This document shows, one piece after another, positions 37,121 through 47,036 of a stretch of 64,000 nucleotides of DNA; the first letter of the stretch is position 1, and the number at the start of each line of letters is the position of its first letter. Location: NCBI RefSeq assembly GCF_023028105.1, contig NZ_CP095491.1, positions 1,612,001-1,676,000 of the forward strand, given 5' to 3'. The notes beneath the pieces were generated by a model. That model did not search any database, was not told where the DNA came from, and was given only the letters and a program-made list of their open reading frames with translations. A program made the position numbers and the translations under genes. The DNA comes from Halosolutus gelatinilyticus. Lineage in GTDB: Archaea; Halobacteriota; Halobacteria; Halobacteriales; Natrialbaceae.

Positions 37121-38119
37121 TCACTCGATCGCGTCCCACCCCGGCGTCTTCGGGGCGCCGCGGGCCTCCTCGACGGTCCTCGCGACGGTCGGCGACGGGA
37201 CCGTCCCGTCAGCGTTACGGCGACGGTCGACCCACTCCCGGATGGCCGGGCCGACCCAGCTCTCGTCACCATTTTCGTCCCCGTTCTCGTCGCCGTCGGG
37301 CCCGTCCTCCCCGTCGTGTACGCCGATCGTCTCGAGCGCCCGCTCGTAATGGTGGTCGGAGATCGCGACCGTACCCGGACTCGAGGCGGCCGCGACCGCG
37401 AGACACTCCGCGCGATCGGTCGCCGTCAGGCCGCCGCTCGCGGCCCGCCCGACGATCCCGTCGAGTCGGTCGGGTTCGGGGTGACAGAAGAGCTTCGCGC
37501 CGATCGCCTGCGACCCCAGCAACAGGCCCTCGGGATCGCCGTGGTCGCCGTCGAGTAACCGCTCGCCGCCGAAGGCCGACTCGACGCGCTCGCACTCGGT
37601 CTCCTGGTCGAGCGCAAGGTTGTGTTCGGGATAGGCACCGCACTCGGCGGGGAAGAGGTCGTCCTCGTGGATGCGACACTGGAGCGTCGTCGGATCGAGG
37701 AAGGTACACGTCGGGAGCCACGCCGGCTCCTCGCGCCCGAACGGGGCGACGGGTTTCGGCGGCTTCCGCAGGCCGACGAAAAAGACCGGCCGCCCCGCGA
37801 TCGCGGCCAGCGAGCGCCCGTCGATCTCGACGCTCTCGGCCTCGTCGGCGGCCGCCCAGAACCGCGGCGTCAGGGCGGCGGCCAGCCCGCGATCGAGGAA
37901 CGCCCGCACCTCGTCGCGGGTCAACGGCACGAAGTTGACGTCGTCGTCGAGGGGCTCCCGGCGGGGCGCGTCGTCGTCGGCCTCCGGAGCGCACAGTCTG
38001 CGGCGAGTGCCGTCTCCGTCGCACTCCCGATCGAAATCGGAGTCGGTCCCGTCGACCCGGTCGAGGAGCGATCGCCAGTCCAGACAACAGCCGGCACAGC
38101 CCGCACAGTTCACCTCCAT
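37121..38119 (-). CDS. YkgJ-type cysteine-cluster protein
   Basis: 332 aa from ATG 38119 (MEVNCAGCAGCC). The N-terminal CxGCxGCC and the later CTFLD, CRIHEDDLFPAECGAYP and LFCHPEP motifs are the YkgJ (Zn/Fe chelating) pattern of about eight cysteines. Two acidic loops are inserted (DSDFDRECDGDG and DENGDENGDE). The family may bind Fe-S or zinc and is often fused to other domains. An upstream in-frame ATG at 38146 gives a hydrophobic, arginine-containing extension that is less likely. Confidence 0.82.
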   Translation of the reverse strand: MEVNCAGCAGCCLDWRSLLDRVDGTDSDFDRECDGDGTRRRLCAPEADDDAPRREPLDDDVNFVPLTRDEVRAFLDRGLAAALTPRFWAAADEAESVEIDGRSLAAIAGRPVFFVGLRKPPKPVAPFGREEPAWLPTCTFLDPTTLQCRIHEDDLFPAECGAYPEHNLALDQETECERVESAFGGERLLDGDHGDPEGLLLGSQAIGAKLFCHPEPDRLDGIVGRAASGGLTATDRAECLAVAAASSPGTVAISDHHYERALETIGVHDGEDGPDGDENGDENGDESWVGPAIREWVDRRRNADGTVPSPTVARTVEEARGAPKTPGWDAIE

Positions 38120-38200
38120 GCGCGCCGGTAGGACGACGACGGGCATAACCGCTCGGCCGGCGGGGGAACGACTTTCACCGATCGGAACCGATCGTCTCGT

Positions 38201-38440
38201 ATGGGACAGAACTCCTGTGACGGCTGCGGTCGAACGGTCACGGTCGCCGGCGGGATGGCCAACTTCTGGACCTTCGGCGATCGCGACGGCAGCGACGGGA
38301 CGGCGATGACGCTGGCGTTCGAGGACGGCTCGGAACACCTGCTGTGCTATCCCTGTATCGCGGCACTGCCGGACCACGCGACGGCCGCCGACGTCGAGCA
38401 GTTGGAGCAGGTCGACGCGGAGACGTCGCGGCTAGCGTAG
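38201..38440 (+). CDS. small haloarchaeal zinc-binding protein
   Basis: 79 aa. SCDGCGR near the N-terminus and HLLCYPCIAAL in the second half give two CxxC pairs, likely a zinc ribbon. Between is GGMANFWTFGDRDGS. I recognise the layout from haloarchaeal genomes but am not sure of the family number. Function unknown. It is divergent from the YkgJ-type gene by 81 bases. Confidence 0.78.
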   Translation: MGQNSCDGCGRTVTVAGGMANFWTFGDRDGSDGTAMTLAFEDGSEHLLCYPCIAALPDHATAADVEQLEQVDAETSRLA

Positions 38441-42584: not shown

Positions 42585-43394
42585 CTACCGCCGCGTGACG
42601 CCGAGCGCGAGGAGGCCGACTACCGCGGCGACGGCTCCGCCAATCGTGAAGCCCGGGAGGCGGTCGCCGTCCGACCCGTCGGATTCGCCGTCATCCACTG
42701 TTTCGTTGCTGTCGTCGCTATCGCCGCCATCGTCGCCGCCGTCGGAGGCGTCGTCGCTATCATCGCCGTTTTCGCTTCCGTCGTCGTTTTCGCTTCCGTC
42801 GTCGCCGTTCTCGGTGTCGTCGTCGGAACCGTCGCCAGCCGCGTCGTCCTCGTCGGTCCCGTCGTCACTGCCGTCACTGCCGTCGCCGTCGGCGGCGGGC
42901 GGCGACGGGCCGCCCGGTGCGCCTCCGCCGGAGTCGCCGACGTCCGCGATGGCGTTCGCGTCGCTCTCGAAGACCATCGAATCGCTCTCGACGAATTCGA
43001 GAGCGAGGTCGCCGTCGACGGCGAACGTTATCGTCGCGAGCGTCGGTTGGTCGACGCTCTCGTCGCCGGTGGTCGACTGAGTGAGAGCCACGTGCCCGCC
43101 CTCGTCGTTCTCGACCGGCTGACCGAAATCGCCGCCGGCGATGTCCTCGACCGCAACGTTGGTCGGATCGTAACTCAGATTGGCCTGAAAGCCGGCGACG
43201 TCCGCGGCGGGGGTGGCGAGTTCGACGGTGATCGTTTCGTCGGTCTCGTCGACGACCGCGAGTTCGATCGTTCCGTCCTCGGTGGCCGACGGCAGGTCGC
43301 TGGCCGCCTGTGCGCCCGCGGCCATCGTCGCCAGCGCGAGGGCGACGACGAGGACGAGAGCGAGCAATCGGATTCGGTTCGGGTTGGTTGTCAT
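42585..43394 (-). CDS. surface-anchored cohesin-domain protein (PGF-CTERM)
   Basis: 269 aa from ATG 43394. Signal peptide about 1-31 (RIRLLALVLVVALALA). Residues about 40-150 are a cohesin-like domain (GTIELAV, AGFQANLSYDPTNVAVEDI, PTLATITFAVDGD). Then a long Asp/Gly/Ser linker (about 150-240). The C-terminus LPGFTIGGAVAAVVGLLALG with basic VTRR is the PGF-CTERM archaeosortase signal. Cohesins bind dockerins; the gene upstream (43509) encodes a dockerin-bearing protease, so this is the likely anchor. 114 bases lie between the genes. Confidence 0.85.
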   Translation of the reverse strand: MTTNPNRIRLLALVLVVALALATMAAGAQAASDLPSATEDGTIELAVVDETDETITVELATPAADVAGFQANLSYDPTNVAVEDIAGGDFGQPVENDEGGHVALTQSTTGDESVDQPTLATITFAVDGDLALEFVESDSMVFESDANAIADVGDSGGGAPGGPSPPAADGDGSDGSDDGTDEDDAAGDGSDDDTENGDDGSENDDGSENGDDSDDASDGGDDGGDSDDSNETVDDGESDGSDGDRLPGFTIGGAVAAVVGLLALGVTRR

Positions 43395-43508
43395 TGTGGT
43401 AGCGTGGAAAGCGTGGGTTCGCAGCGTCTCTGAACGGTCGGTTCGGCCACCGATCGAGCACAAAAATCGCCGCGCGGCGATTTCGGTGGCGTCTCGATTC
43501 GACTCGGG

Positions 43509-46500
43509 TTAGGCTTCGATCGCGTTCGGACCGTGGGCCTCGACGATCTCCTCGAGGATGAGGATGACGTCGCCGGCGTTGACCTCGCCGTCTCGATCCA
43601 TGTCGGCGAGTTCCGCGTTGAACGCGCCGGTCGGTTCGTCGCCGACGATGTACTGCTGGGTCAGCGTCGCGTCGAGCGTGTTGACGTCGTCGTCGCCGTT
43701 GACGTCACCGAGCCAGTTCGGCGTGACGGTCCCGTCCTCGGTCATGATCGTGAGTTCGCTTTCCGCGTCGTTGAGGAAGGTGTTCTCCTCGTCGAAGATC
43801 AGTTTGGCGGCGTCGTCGCTGTCGCCGACGACCGCGAACTCGACCTCGGCGAGCGTCGGCATGGACTCGTTGCCGGCCTGGGCGGCGGCGATCGAGAGCG
43901 TGCCGTTCTCGTTGTCGATACTGCTAACCGGGTCGTCGAAGTCGACGCCGTTGACCCCTTCGACCTGCAGGACGGCGGGGTCGAAGCGGACTTGCGTCTC
44001 GTAGCCTGCAACGGCCTCGGCGGTAGTGTTGATCTCGACGGTGACAGTTTCGTCGATGATCCCCATGTAGTCGCCGTCGCCGAACGTGAGCAGTCCGTCG
44101 GGCTCCTCGTGGACCGTCACGGTGCGGGTAACCGCGTCGTCCTCGCTCGCAACGGTCACGTTGCCGGTCCCGATGTCGCTCGTGTTGGTCTCCCAGGAGA
44201 GCGAGACGTTCGCCGCCTCGCCCTCGTCGAGCGAGAGCGCCGTGCTGTCGACGACGTCGCCGTCGAAGTCGGCGAGCGTGACGTTCTGGGTCCCGTTTTC
44301 GCTACCGACGTTTTCGACGGTGGCGCCGACGGTCAGGTTCTCGCCTTCGATGACGGGTTCGTTCGTCTCGGTCACCTCGACCTGGAAGCTGGGTCTGGGC
44401 TCGGCGAGGTATTCGACCGCGTTGGCCAGGATCGTATCGGCGTCGTCGGTGTAGTCTCCGCTCCCGACGAAGGCCGAGTAGCCCAGGCTCGAGGCGAACA
44501 CCGTCGCGCTCCCGTCGTCGACGGCGAAACCGCTTCCGACGGCGACCCCTTCGGCGCTCGTCTCCGCGAGCACGTCGAAGTCGGTTCCGTCGAACCACGT
44601 GTGGTCGCCGAAGCTTCCGGTGTGAATGTCCACCGTGTCGCCGGCCTCGCCGACGCCGGCGAAGATCTGGTGGTCCGCGGTCAGTTCGTAGCCGACCGGC
44701 GGCGAAACGAAGTCGTTTTCGTACGTCGACGCCGGCTCGCCCGTCACGTCGGAGTGAACGGGGAGCGCGTTGCTGTCGCTGCCCCACTGATCGAGGTAGA
44801 CGACGCCGGTATCGCCGCCGTCGGTCGCTTCGATGAACTCCTCGGCCCCGCCGGTCGCGAGGTTCTGGACGACGATCACGTCGTAGCCGTCTTTCGCTTC
44901 GTCGGATGTGGTCGCGACGGGGTCGTACAGCGCCGGGAGTTCGTCTTCGAGTACGGCGGCGATGTCGTCGCCGAACGAACCGGCGTCGTCGACGACGGCG
45001 ACGGGGACGTACTCTTCGAACACCATCGTCGGACCAGTTGCGATCGTGTGCTCGTCGCCCATGCCGGTGAAGGTGTGTTCGAGCGCGAGCTCACCCTCGG
45101 TGTCTTCGGTCGTTTCGACGGCGATCGTCAGATCGTCCGAGATCGGTCCGCCGAAGTCGACCGTCTCGCCGAACTCGGTTTCCTCGCCGTCCACGTAGAG
45201 GGTCGCGTTCTCGGGGTTGTAGTCGCCCCCGAGGTCGACGGTCACCGTTTCGACGTTCGCGGCGGTGACGTTCACCTCGACCGTGTCACCGCCCTCGACG
45301 CCCTCGGGCTGGTCGTTGACAAGTTCGACGTCGAGGGCGTCGGCGAGATCGAAGTTCTGGACCGTCGTCTCCTCTTCTTCGACCGTCACGGTGGCGCTTT
45401 CGGCCTCGTAGCCGAACGCGTCTGCGGTGACGGTGTACTCGCCGGCCGGTGCGACGAGGCTGTACTGTCCGTCGTCGTCGGTGACGGTGCTGCCGGCGCC
45501 GTCGACGTCGACGGTCGCGTCGTCGATCGGCGTCCCGTCGGCGGCCGTCACGGTGCCGTTGATCCCGCTGTCGAGCGCGACCATGTTGGTCGCGGCGGCG
45601 ACGTCGATGATTCCGTGTCCGTACTCGGTGTTCGGTTCCTCGCCGCCGTCCGGCTGCCAGGCGGTTTGCTCGAGCGCGTCGTACAGCAGGTCGCGATCGG
45701 CGTCACCGCCGGAGGCCGCGATCATCAGCGCGAAGGCGCCGGCCTTGTGCGGCGCGGACATCGACGTCCCCGAGTACGTGTCGTCGTAGCCGCCGCCGGG
45801 GACGGAACTCAGGACGTTGACGCCCGGTGCGGCCGCGTTCGGTACGACGAATTCGTCCGGCCAGTACTCAGGCGCGTCCGGGAACGCGCTCTCGGTGTCG
45901 ATCACTTCGCCGCTCGAGAAGCTGGCAACCTGGCCGCTCTCGTCGACGGCGCCGCTCGCGAAGTTCGGGTACACGTTCCCCGGGGAACCGCTGGTCCCCT
46001 GGCCGCTGTTTCCGGCCGAACTCACGAGCACGACGCCGGCGTCGCGCGCGTTCTCGGACGGTTCGATGAGTTCGCTGTAGTAGCCCGTGGCACCGAGGCT
46101 CATCGAGATGATGTCGGCGTCGGTGTCGTTGACGGCCCACTCCATGCCGGCGAGGATCTGGGCAAAGGAGCCACCGCCGGCGTCGCTGAGAACTTTGCCG
46201 TGGTAGAGCTCCGCCTCGGGGGCCACGCCGTAAACGGGAACGTCGCCCTCGGGGTTGTCAGATCCGGTGACGGTGCCGCTCACGTGGGTCCCGTGTCCAT
46301 TTCCATCGTTCGGCTCGGACTCGATCGGTTCGCCCGAATCGTCGAACTCCTGCCAGTTGTCGGGGTCGATCTCGAGGTCAGGGTGGTCGGCGTCGACGCC
46401 CGTATCAAGGATGGCGACGCCCGCGCCGCCGCCCTTGGTTCCGTGTTGCTCCCAGACCTCGGTGGCGTTGATCATGTCCAGTCCGTAGGTCACGTTCTCG

Positions 46501-47036
46501 GCGGTCGGCCGAACCGACTCGTCCGCGGCGGCGTCGGCCGATTCGGAATCGGCACTCGGCCCGCCGGTTATCTCGAGCTCGAAGTTCTTGTGGACGGCCT
46601 CCGCGCCCGTGTATCGGGCGACTTCCTCGGGTGATACCTTCGCGGTATCGACTTCGAGGAGGATCGCGTTCGCGATCCAGAACTCGTTCTCGACCGTCAC
46701 GCCGTCCGTCTCCTTCGCCCATCGGATCGCTTCTTTCTGCGACTCCGCGGCGTGCGTCTTGAGCGCGCCGACGGCTTCCTCTTCGCTCGCCGTCGAGACG
46801 ACCTCGGCGCGTTCGAAGCGGACGACCATCTCAGTGGTCCCGTCCGCGTCCTGCAGCGCCTCGTCGATCCGATCCATCTCGAGCGACGAGACCTCCAGGT
46901 AGTCGTCTGTCGTACCACTCGCCCGGTCACCAGCACCCGCTCCCGCTGCCATCGCCGGGAGAGAAGTGACCATCAGGAGCGCAAATACGATCGCGACGCC
47001 CCTTCCGAACGTCCATTGTAGTGTATCTCTGCTCAT
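43509..47036 (-). CDS. secreted subtilase with cohesin-like and dockerin domains
   Basis: 1175 aa. Signal about 1-31; inhibitor-like propeptide about 45-157; S8 catalytic domain about 180-470 with Asp211 (ILDTGVDADHPD), His248 (GNGHGTHVSG), Asn343 (SSAGNSG) and Ser425 (SGTSMSAPHKAG). Then a carboxypeptidase-regulatory-like repeat (GINGTVTAADGTPIDDATVD), several beta domains, a CARDB-like segment (VGATVENVGSENGTQNV), a cohesin-like module (IIDETVTVEINT, AGYETQVRFDPAVLQVEGV), and a type-I dockerin (LGDVNGDDDVNTLDAT and ADMDRDGEVNAGD). No C-terminal anchor. Followed by the anchored cohesin gene. Confidence 0.93.
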   Translation of the reverse strand: MSRDTLQWTFGRGVAIVFALLMVTSLPAMAAGAGAGDRASGTTDDYLEVSSLEMDRIDEALQDADGTTEMVVRFERAEVVSTASEEEAVGALKTHAAESQKEAIRWAKETDGVTVENEFWIANAILLEVDTAKVSPEEVARYTGAEAVHKNFELEITGGPSADSESADAAADESVRPTAENVTYGLDMINATEVWEQHGTKGGGAGVAILDTGVDADHPDLEIDPDNWQEFDDSGEPIESEPNDGNGHGTHVSGTVTGSDNPEGDVPVYGVAPEAELYHGKVLSDAGGGSFAQILAGMEWAVNDTDADIISMSLGATGYYSELIEPSENARDAGVVLVSSAGNSGQGTSGSPGNVYPNFASGAVDESGQVASFSSGEVIDTESAFPDAPEYWPDEFVVPNAAAPGVNVLSSVPGGGYDDTYSGTSMSAPHKAGAFALMIAASGGDADRDLLYDALEQTAWQPDGGEEPNTEYGHGIIDVAAATNMVALDSGINGTVTAADGTPIDDATVDVDGAGSTVTDDDGQYSLVAPAGEYTVTADAFGYEAESATVTVEEEETTVQNFDLADALDVELVNDQPEGVEGGDTVEVNVTAANVETVTVDLGGDYNPENATLYVDGEETEFGETVDFGGPISDDLTIAVETTEDTEGELALEHTFTGMGDEHTIATGPTMVFEEYVPVAVVDDAGSFGDDIAAVLEDELPALYDPVATTSDEAKDGYDVIVVQNLATGGAEEFIEATDGGDTGVVYLDQWGSDSNALPVHSDVTGEPASTYENDFVSPPVGYELTADHQIFAGVGEAGDTVDIHTGSFGDHTWFDGTDFDVLAETSAEGVAVGSGFAVDDGSATVFASSLGYSAFVGSGDYTDDADTILANAVEYLAEPRPSFQVEVTETNEPVIEGENLTVGATVENVGSENGTQNVTLADFDGDVVDSTALSLDEGEAANVSLSWETNTSDIGTGNVTVASEDDAVTRTVTVHEEPDGLLTFGDGDYMGIIDETVTVEINTTAEAVAGYETQVRFDPAVLQVEGVNGVDFDDPVSSIDNENGTLSIAAAQAGNESMPTLAEVEFAVVGDSDDAAKLIFDEENTFLNDAESELTIMTEDGTVTPNWLGDVNGDDDVNTLDATLTQQYIVGDEPTGAFNAELADMDRDGEVNAGDVILILEEIVEAHGPNAIEA

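Follow-up and report, generated by a model that had tools for sequence, protein, structure and literature searches.

In Archaeoglobus, the dockerin of ORF2375 strongly binds the cohesin of ORF2376 (PMC9705933), and in ANME archaea as many as five cohesins have been reported in scaffoldin-like proteins (PMC9012536). For haloarchaea, a Halobacterium subtilisin-(Dockerin_1)2 protein, NP_280653.1, was noted in part of a 2008 survey (PMC2605481). More recent haloarchaeal papers take dockerins as substrate-binding (PMC10963439, PMC13260240), and according to a 2017 review it is not known what cohesin and dockerin proteins do outside the cellulosome (PMC5244752). In the open-access papers searched, we found no account of a haloarchaeal dockerin-cohesin gene pair or of multi-cohesin protease scaffolds.

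Here, we analysed a stretch of 64,000 nucleotides from Halosolutus gelatinilyticus (hereafter the window). As in Archaeoglobus, a dockerin gene adjoins the gene of a secreted cohesin protein; the two are on the same strand, 114 bp apart when ATG 43394 is taken as start of the second gene, and the arrangement is conserved in relatives. We consider it probable that they form a two-gene surface-docking cassette, in which the dockerin of a secreted protease binds an anchored cohesin (cohesin B) and so keeps the enzyme on the surface of the cell.

The subtilase and surface-anchor genes

Table 1 Coordinates of the gene pair, its domains and related loci. Positions without a prefix refer to the window.
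Feature	Position	Strand	Evidence or remarks
Secreted subtilase gene, 1175 aa	43509..47036	-	signal peptide - S8 - CarboxypepD_reg - CARDB - cohesin A - dockerin
Subtilase Sec signal peptide, predicted	46944..47036	-	read by eye
S8 catalytic domain	45612..46427	-	Pfam PF00082, E 6.1e-41
CarboxypepD_reg domain	45345..45563	-	Pfam PF13620, E 7.7e-15
CARDB domain	44151..44393	-	Pfam PF07705, E 1.2e-5
Cohesin A, same chain as dockerin	about 43716..44096	-	PF00963 35.4 bits, above cut-off
Type I dockerin, two Ca-loop/helix repeats (DVNGDDDVNTLD, DMDRDGEVNAGD)	43557..43712	-	PF00404, genome search E 5.7e-11
Intergenic hairpin AATCGCC-GCGC-GGCGATT, then T run	43462..43482	-	alignment of 11 intergenic regions
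Surface-anchor gene, 269 aa	42585..43394	-	signal peptide - cohesin B - acidic linker - PGF-CTERM-like tail
Anchor-protein Sec signal peptide, predicted	43302..43394	-	read by eye
Cohesin B	42948..43235	-	PF00963 E 8.6e-7
Acidic linker, D/S/G-rich	42666..42947	-	sequence
PGF-CTERM-like tripartite tail LPGF-TM-RR	42588..42659	-	TIGR04126 14 bits, curated cut-off 24.5
PhoX cassette	L009:5208-8548; G000:C1 about 2315-2318.5 kb		same layout as window pair
ORF 2089 aa, 14 Pfam cohesins, PGF-CTERM-like tail	L154:11165-17431	-	G208, genus g6
ORF 1260 aa, 8 Pfam cohesins, PGF-CTERM-like tail	L152:10560-14339	+	G043, genus g6

The D, H and S motifs of the subtilase catalytic domain were intact (ILDTGVD, GHGTHVSG, GTSMSAP). 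An earlier note on this DNA had read the end of the protein as a type I dockerin, and the Pfam search agreed, with Dockerin_1 matching aa 1109-1159 at E 1.4e-9 and 38.5 bits, against a cut-off of 22.9. D/N ligands were present in both calcium loops (alignment A1), and the domain was similar to solved cellulosomal dockerins. A chance likeness to EF-hands was ruled out by the Pfam E-value, together with the match to these solved structures. No GH or CBM domains were found in either window protein by Pfam search, the cargo being an S8 protease.

Directly N-terminal to the dockerin, at about aa 981-1107, is cohesin A, which was also matched by an HMM built in this analysis (E 3e-38). The domains described in the earlier note were correct as given, and this second cohesin inside the subtilase was missed. 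Because the protease carries cohesin A, the pair is not simply the 'minimal' docking system that the note had proposed. The Archaeoglobus ORF2375 protein likewise has a cohesin of its own.

For the anchor protein, the layout proposed earlier was largely recovered: signal peptide, cohesin (PF00963; aa 54-149, 29.7 bits, cut-off 24.1), acidic linker and the 114 bp gap to the subtilase gene. The PGF-CTERM end was recovered as a motif. The tail, LPGFTIGGAVAAVVGLLALGVTRR, has the PGF motif, a hydrophobic stretch and a basic end, yet its TIGR04126 score is below the cut-off. In line with the proposed link to an archaeosortase, archaeosortase A is encoded in the same genome (TIGR04125, E 2.4e-99).

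The hairpin between the two genes, with its T run, recurred in the majority of the 11 relatives in the alignment, and in L118 it showed a paired change (AACCGC/GCGGTT). A terminator consensus scan did not report it. Going by the aligned sequences, it looks like a terminator, which in this position would permit the protease and anchor genes to be expressed at differing levels. Both genes lie in one reading frame, interrupted by just one stop codon, in the window (TAA, 43509-43511) and at four other loci (L055, L057, L062, L091); in these five loci the shared frame is probably chance in GC-rich DNA. Outside the docking genes, the window has a long ORF at 37121-38377 (- strand) with a cysteine-rich stretch that comprises NCAGCAGCCLDW and, further along, CTFL..CRIH..CGAYP. 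We take the cysteine-rich stretch to recall YkgJ-type zinc/iron proteins.

Conservation of the layout and its occurrence with other enzymes

Searches with PF00963 and PF00404, which the earlier note had proposed as a check, gave significant matches in both window proteins and across genomes of the class. In the 391 class genomes searched, dockerins were found in 172 and cohesins in 153; many genomes had cohesins and no Pfam dockerins. A search with a single window protein gave only three related loci, from uncultured bacteria, matched via the dockerin. For the gene neighbourhoods, 80 regions around the best dockerins were analysed, using HMMs built in this analysis, and three regions from genus g6 with large clusters were set aside from the pair counts.

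The conserved gene order expected in the earlier note was found. A cohesin gene was next downstream, on the same strand, for 27 of the 30 subtilases with cohesin A and a dockerin, the remaining three having no cohesin neighbour. In contrast, this was the case for none of the 20 dockerin-bearing subtilases without cohesin A (Fisher p 4e-11, a value too small owing to relatedness, the contrast still being plain). The 27 paired loci were spread over 11 genera and four families, and a layout that recurs so widely is not due to chance. In relatives, the cohesin B proteins have an N-terminal signal peptide and, at the other end, either a PGF-CTERM-like tail or a plain membrane helix. An annotated example is found in Halomicrococcus gelatinilyticus, where WP_327053866 (S8 family serine peptidase) and WP_327053867 (cohesin domain-containing protein) are encoded 119 bp apart.

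Two further types of loci were observed. Subtilases of 1500-1790 aa with the dockerin in mid-chain (L052, L056, L065, L073, L074 and others) had no cohesin in cis or as a neighbour. A lone cohesin protein of 264 aa with a PSF-type tail is encoded in the same genome as the window (L007:8579-9373, - strand), and no dockerin gene was seen near it.

The same layout was present with other secreted proteins. The window's own genome encodes a PhoX phosphatase (L009:5208-7838) with a cohesin-like domain and an EF-hand dockerin at its end; the gene after it encodes a signal peptide, a homologous cohesin-like domain and a PGF-CTERM-like tail. This PhoX anchor protein was matched in 60 of the 194 class genomes searched, in most cases with a second homologous domain in a neighbouring PhoX ORF of about 880-950 aa; the EF-hand dockerin end was present at all 20 PhoX loci inspected. 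The profile likeness of the PhoX-type domain to cohesin B was weak (E 0.03, probability 1.6%), and its identity as a cohesin therefore rests on motif and layout. A dockerin with a downstream cohesin was also found for calcineurin-like phosphatases (L084, L112 and, by eye, Halobaculum halobium L162), a carbohydrate-binding-type protein (L054), a beta-helix protein (L049) and a DUF7382 protein (L124). As judged from sequence, the layout is not peculiar to proteases, and is shared by PhoX, calcineurin-type phosphatases and other secreted proteins. Found in 11 genera and with three or more kinds of enzymes, the pair points to a specific and easily tested function, the holding of secreted enzymes on the archaeal surface.

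Enlarged clusters were found in genus g6. The 8-cohesin ORF of G043 sits among five dockerin subtilases, the 14-cohesin ORF of G208 sits within a larger dockerin-subtilase cluster, and both clusters also contain smaller anchored cohesin proteins. The multi-cohesin proteins look like cellulosome-type scaffolds for proteases. We see about an even chance that haloarchaea build cellulosome-like surface protease machines, with the window cassette as the smallest unit, enlarged in g6 to a surface-bound multi-protease complex that would work in very high salt.

Candidate partners of the dockerin

Cohesin A and the dockerin were predicted by AlphaFold as one confident rigid unit (pLDDT 92, pTM 0.81). 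In VIA-align comparisons, the cohesin A model reached Z 17.5 among bacterial cohesins, for the ScaC cohesin (4uyq), and 15.7 for A. fulgidus 2XDH. For cohesin B, pLDDT was about 83-96 across the domain, and the top Foldseek matches were cohesins, 2XDH being second. In these models, both domains have the cohesin beta-sandwich fold. The dockerin and cohesin B were also modelled as one tethered AlphaFold chain, read through the single in-frame TAA purely as a tether. Both domains were well folded, with about 100 low-confidence residues in the chain, and the model did not show them docked (pTM 0.44; the alignment had few paired rows, and the signal peptide was inside the linker). The distance-matrix correlation with the dockerin did not discriminate between the two cohesins, partial r being 0.57 for cohesin B and 0.60 for cohesin A.

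Cohesin A may serve as a rigid spacer, comparable to the X-module in X-dockerins, or offer an additional site for docking through which proteases could chain. This second role could extend to the whole system, with the dockerin binding cohesin A of another protease, in chains or dimers, and cohesin B only capping or anchoring the chain. The cohesin fold of cohesin A is complete, its co-variation with the dockerin is as strong as that of cohesin B, and g6 genomes encode proteases with a dockerin and as many as two cohesins, all of which would suit such an assembly. However, the rigid cohesin A-dockerin unit is also compatible with the spacer role, and a cohesin B neighbour kept in 27 of 30 loci indicates that the anchor is not optional; we regard assembly through cohesin A as unlikely. 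As the gene order is conserved, the candidate anchor partner of the dockerin is the neighbour's cohesin B.

It is more doubtful still that the dockerin binds a substrate, or merely stabilises the protein through calcium. This function has been proposed for the haloarchaeal dockerins of mannanases and a glycosaminoglycan lyase (PMC10963439, PMC13260240), and it may apply to the 20 dockerin subtilases that have no cohesin gene next to them, but it leaves unexplained why a surface cohesin nearly always adjoins the cohesin A-dockerin type, across several unrelated enzymes. Other partners, with cohesin B binding a different ligand or the dockerin using the lone anchored cohesin of the same genome (G000:C1:3658812), are very improbable, since the conserved gene order points to the neighbour and the modules of Archaeoglobus ORF2375 and ORF2376 bind one another, even if such a lone cohesin exists and many genomes have cohesins without a Pfam dockerin.

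The surface-docking cassette is the explanation that we favour. It is supported by the conservation of gene order, the PhoX cassette of like layout in the same genome, the predicted folds, the presence of archaeosortase A and the Archaeoglobus precedent. Under this model, the subtilase and the anchor protein would both be exported, and archaeosortase A would attach the cohesin B protein to a membrane lipid, its acidic linker spanning the S-layer. The calcium-loaded dockerin, fixed in position beside cohesin A, would then bind cohesin B. With the protease kept at the cell, peptides would be released next to it. In this model, we infer that the dockerin binds cohesin B, that the anchor's tail is processed and that the cell benefits from retaining the protease.

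Comparison with known docking systems

The finding points to archaeal protease scaffolds with many cohesins and, for biotechnology, to docking parts that are stable in salt. Its similarity to the bacterial cellulosome lies in the placement of the modules, with the dockerin on the enzyme and the cohesin on a surface-anchored protein, to which g6 adds multi-cohesin scaffolds. In contrast to the cellulosome, the haloarchaeal cargo consists of proteases and phosphatases instead of glycoside hydrolases, no carbohydrate-binding scaffold was seen, and an archaeosortase-type tail replaces SLH or sortase anchoring. The window cassette has a single anchoring cohesin and lacks the several-cohesin feature of scaffoldins.

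The cohesin-dockerin proteins of ANME are archaeal and of surface type, as are those of haloarchaea. Their cargo includes ABC-transporter binding proteins, whereas haloarchaea have a conserved two-gene enzyme unit and, in g6, scaffolds of 8 and 14 cohesins. Halobacterium NP_280653.1 is, like the window protein, a haloarchaeal subtilase with dockerin repeats; the part of the survey that covers it annotates it under cellulose degradation/metabolism and mentions neither a cohesin partner nor a gene pair (PMC2605481).

The closest system is the Archaeoglobus fulgidus pair AfuDoc75/AfuCoh76. There too, dockerin and cohesin are on separate, consecutively numbered ORFs (O30295/O30294), the system is archaeal and non-cellulosomal, and both window cohesins resemble its 2XDH structurally. 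The window differs by its cargo, an S8 protease, and by the PGF-CTERM-like tail of the partner protein, and the haloarchaeal layout is common to many genera and to several enzymes.
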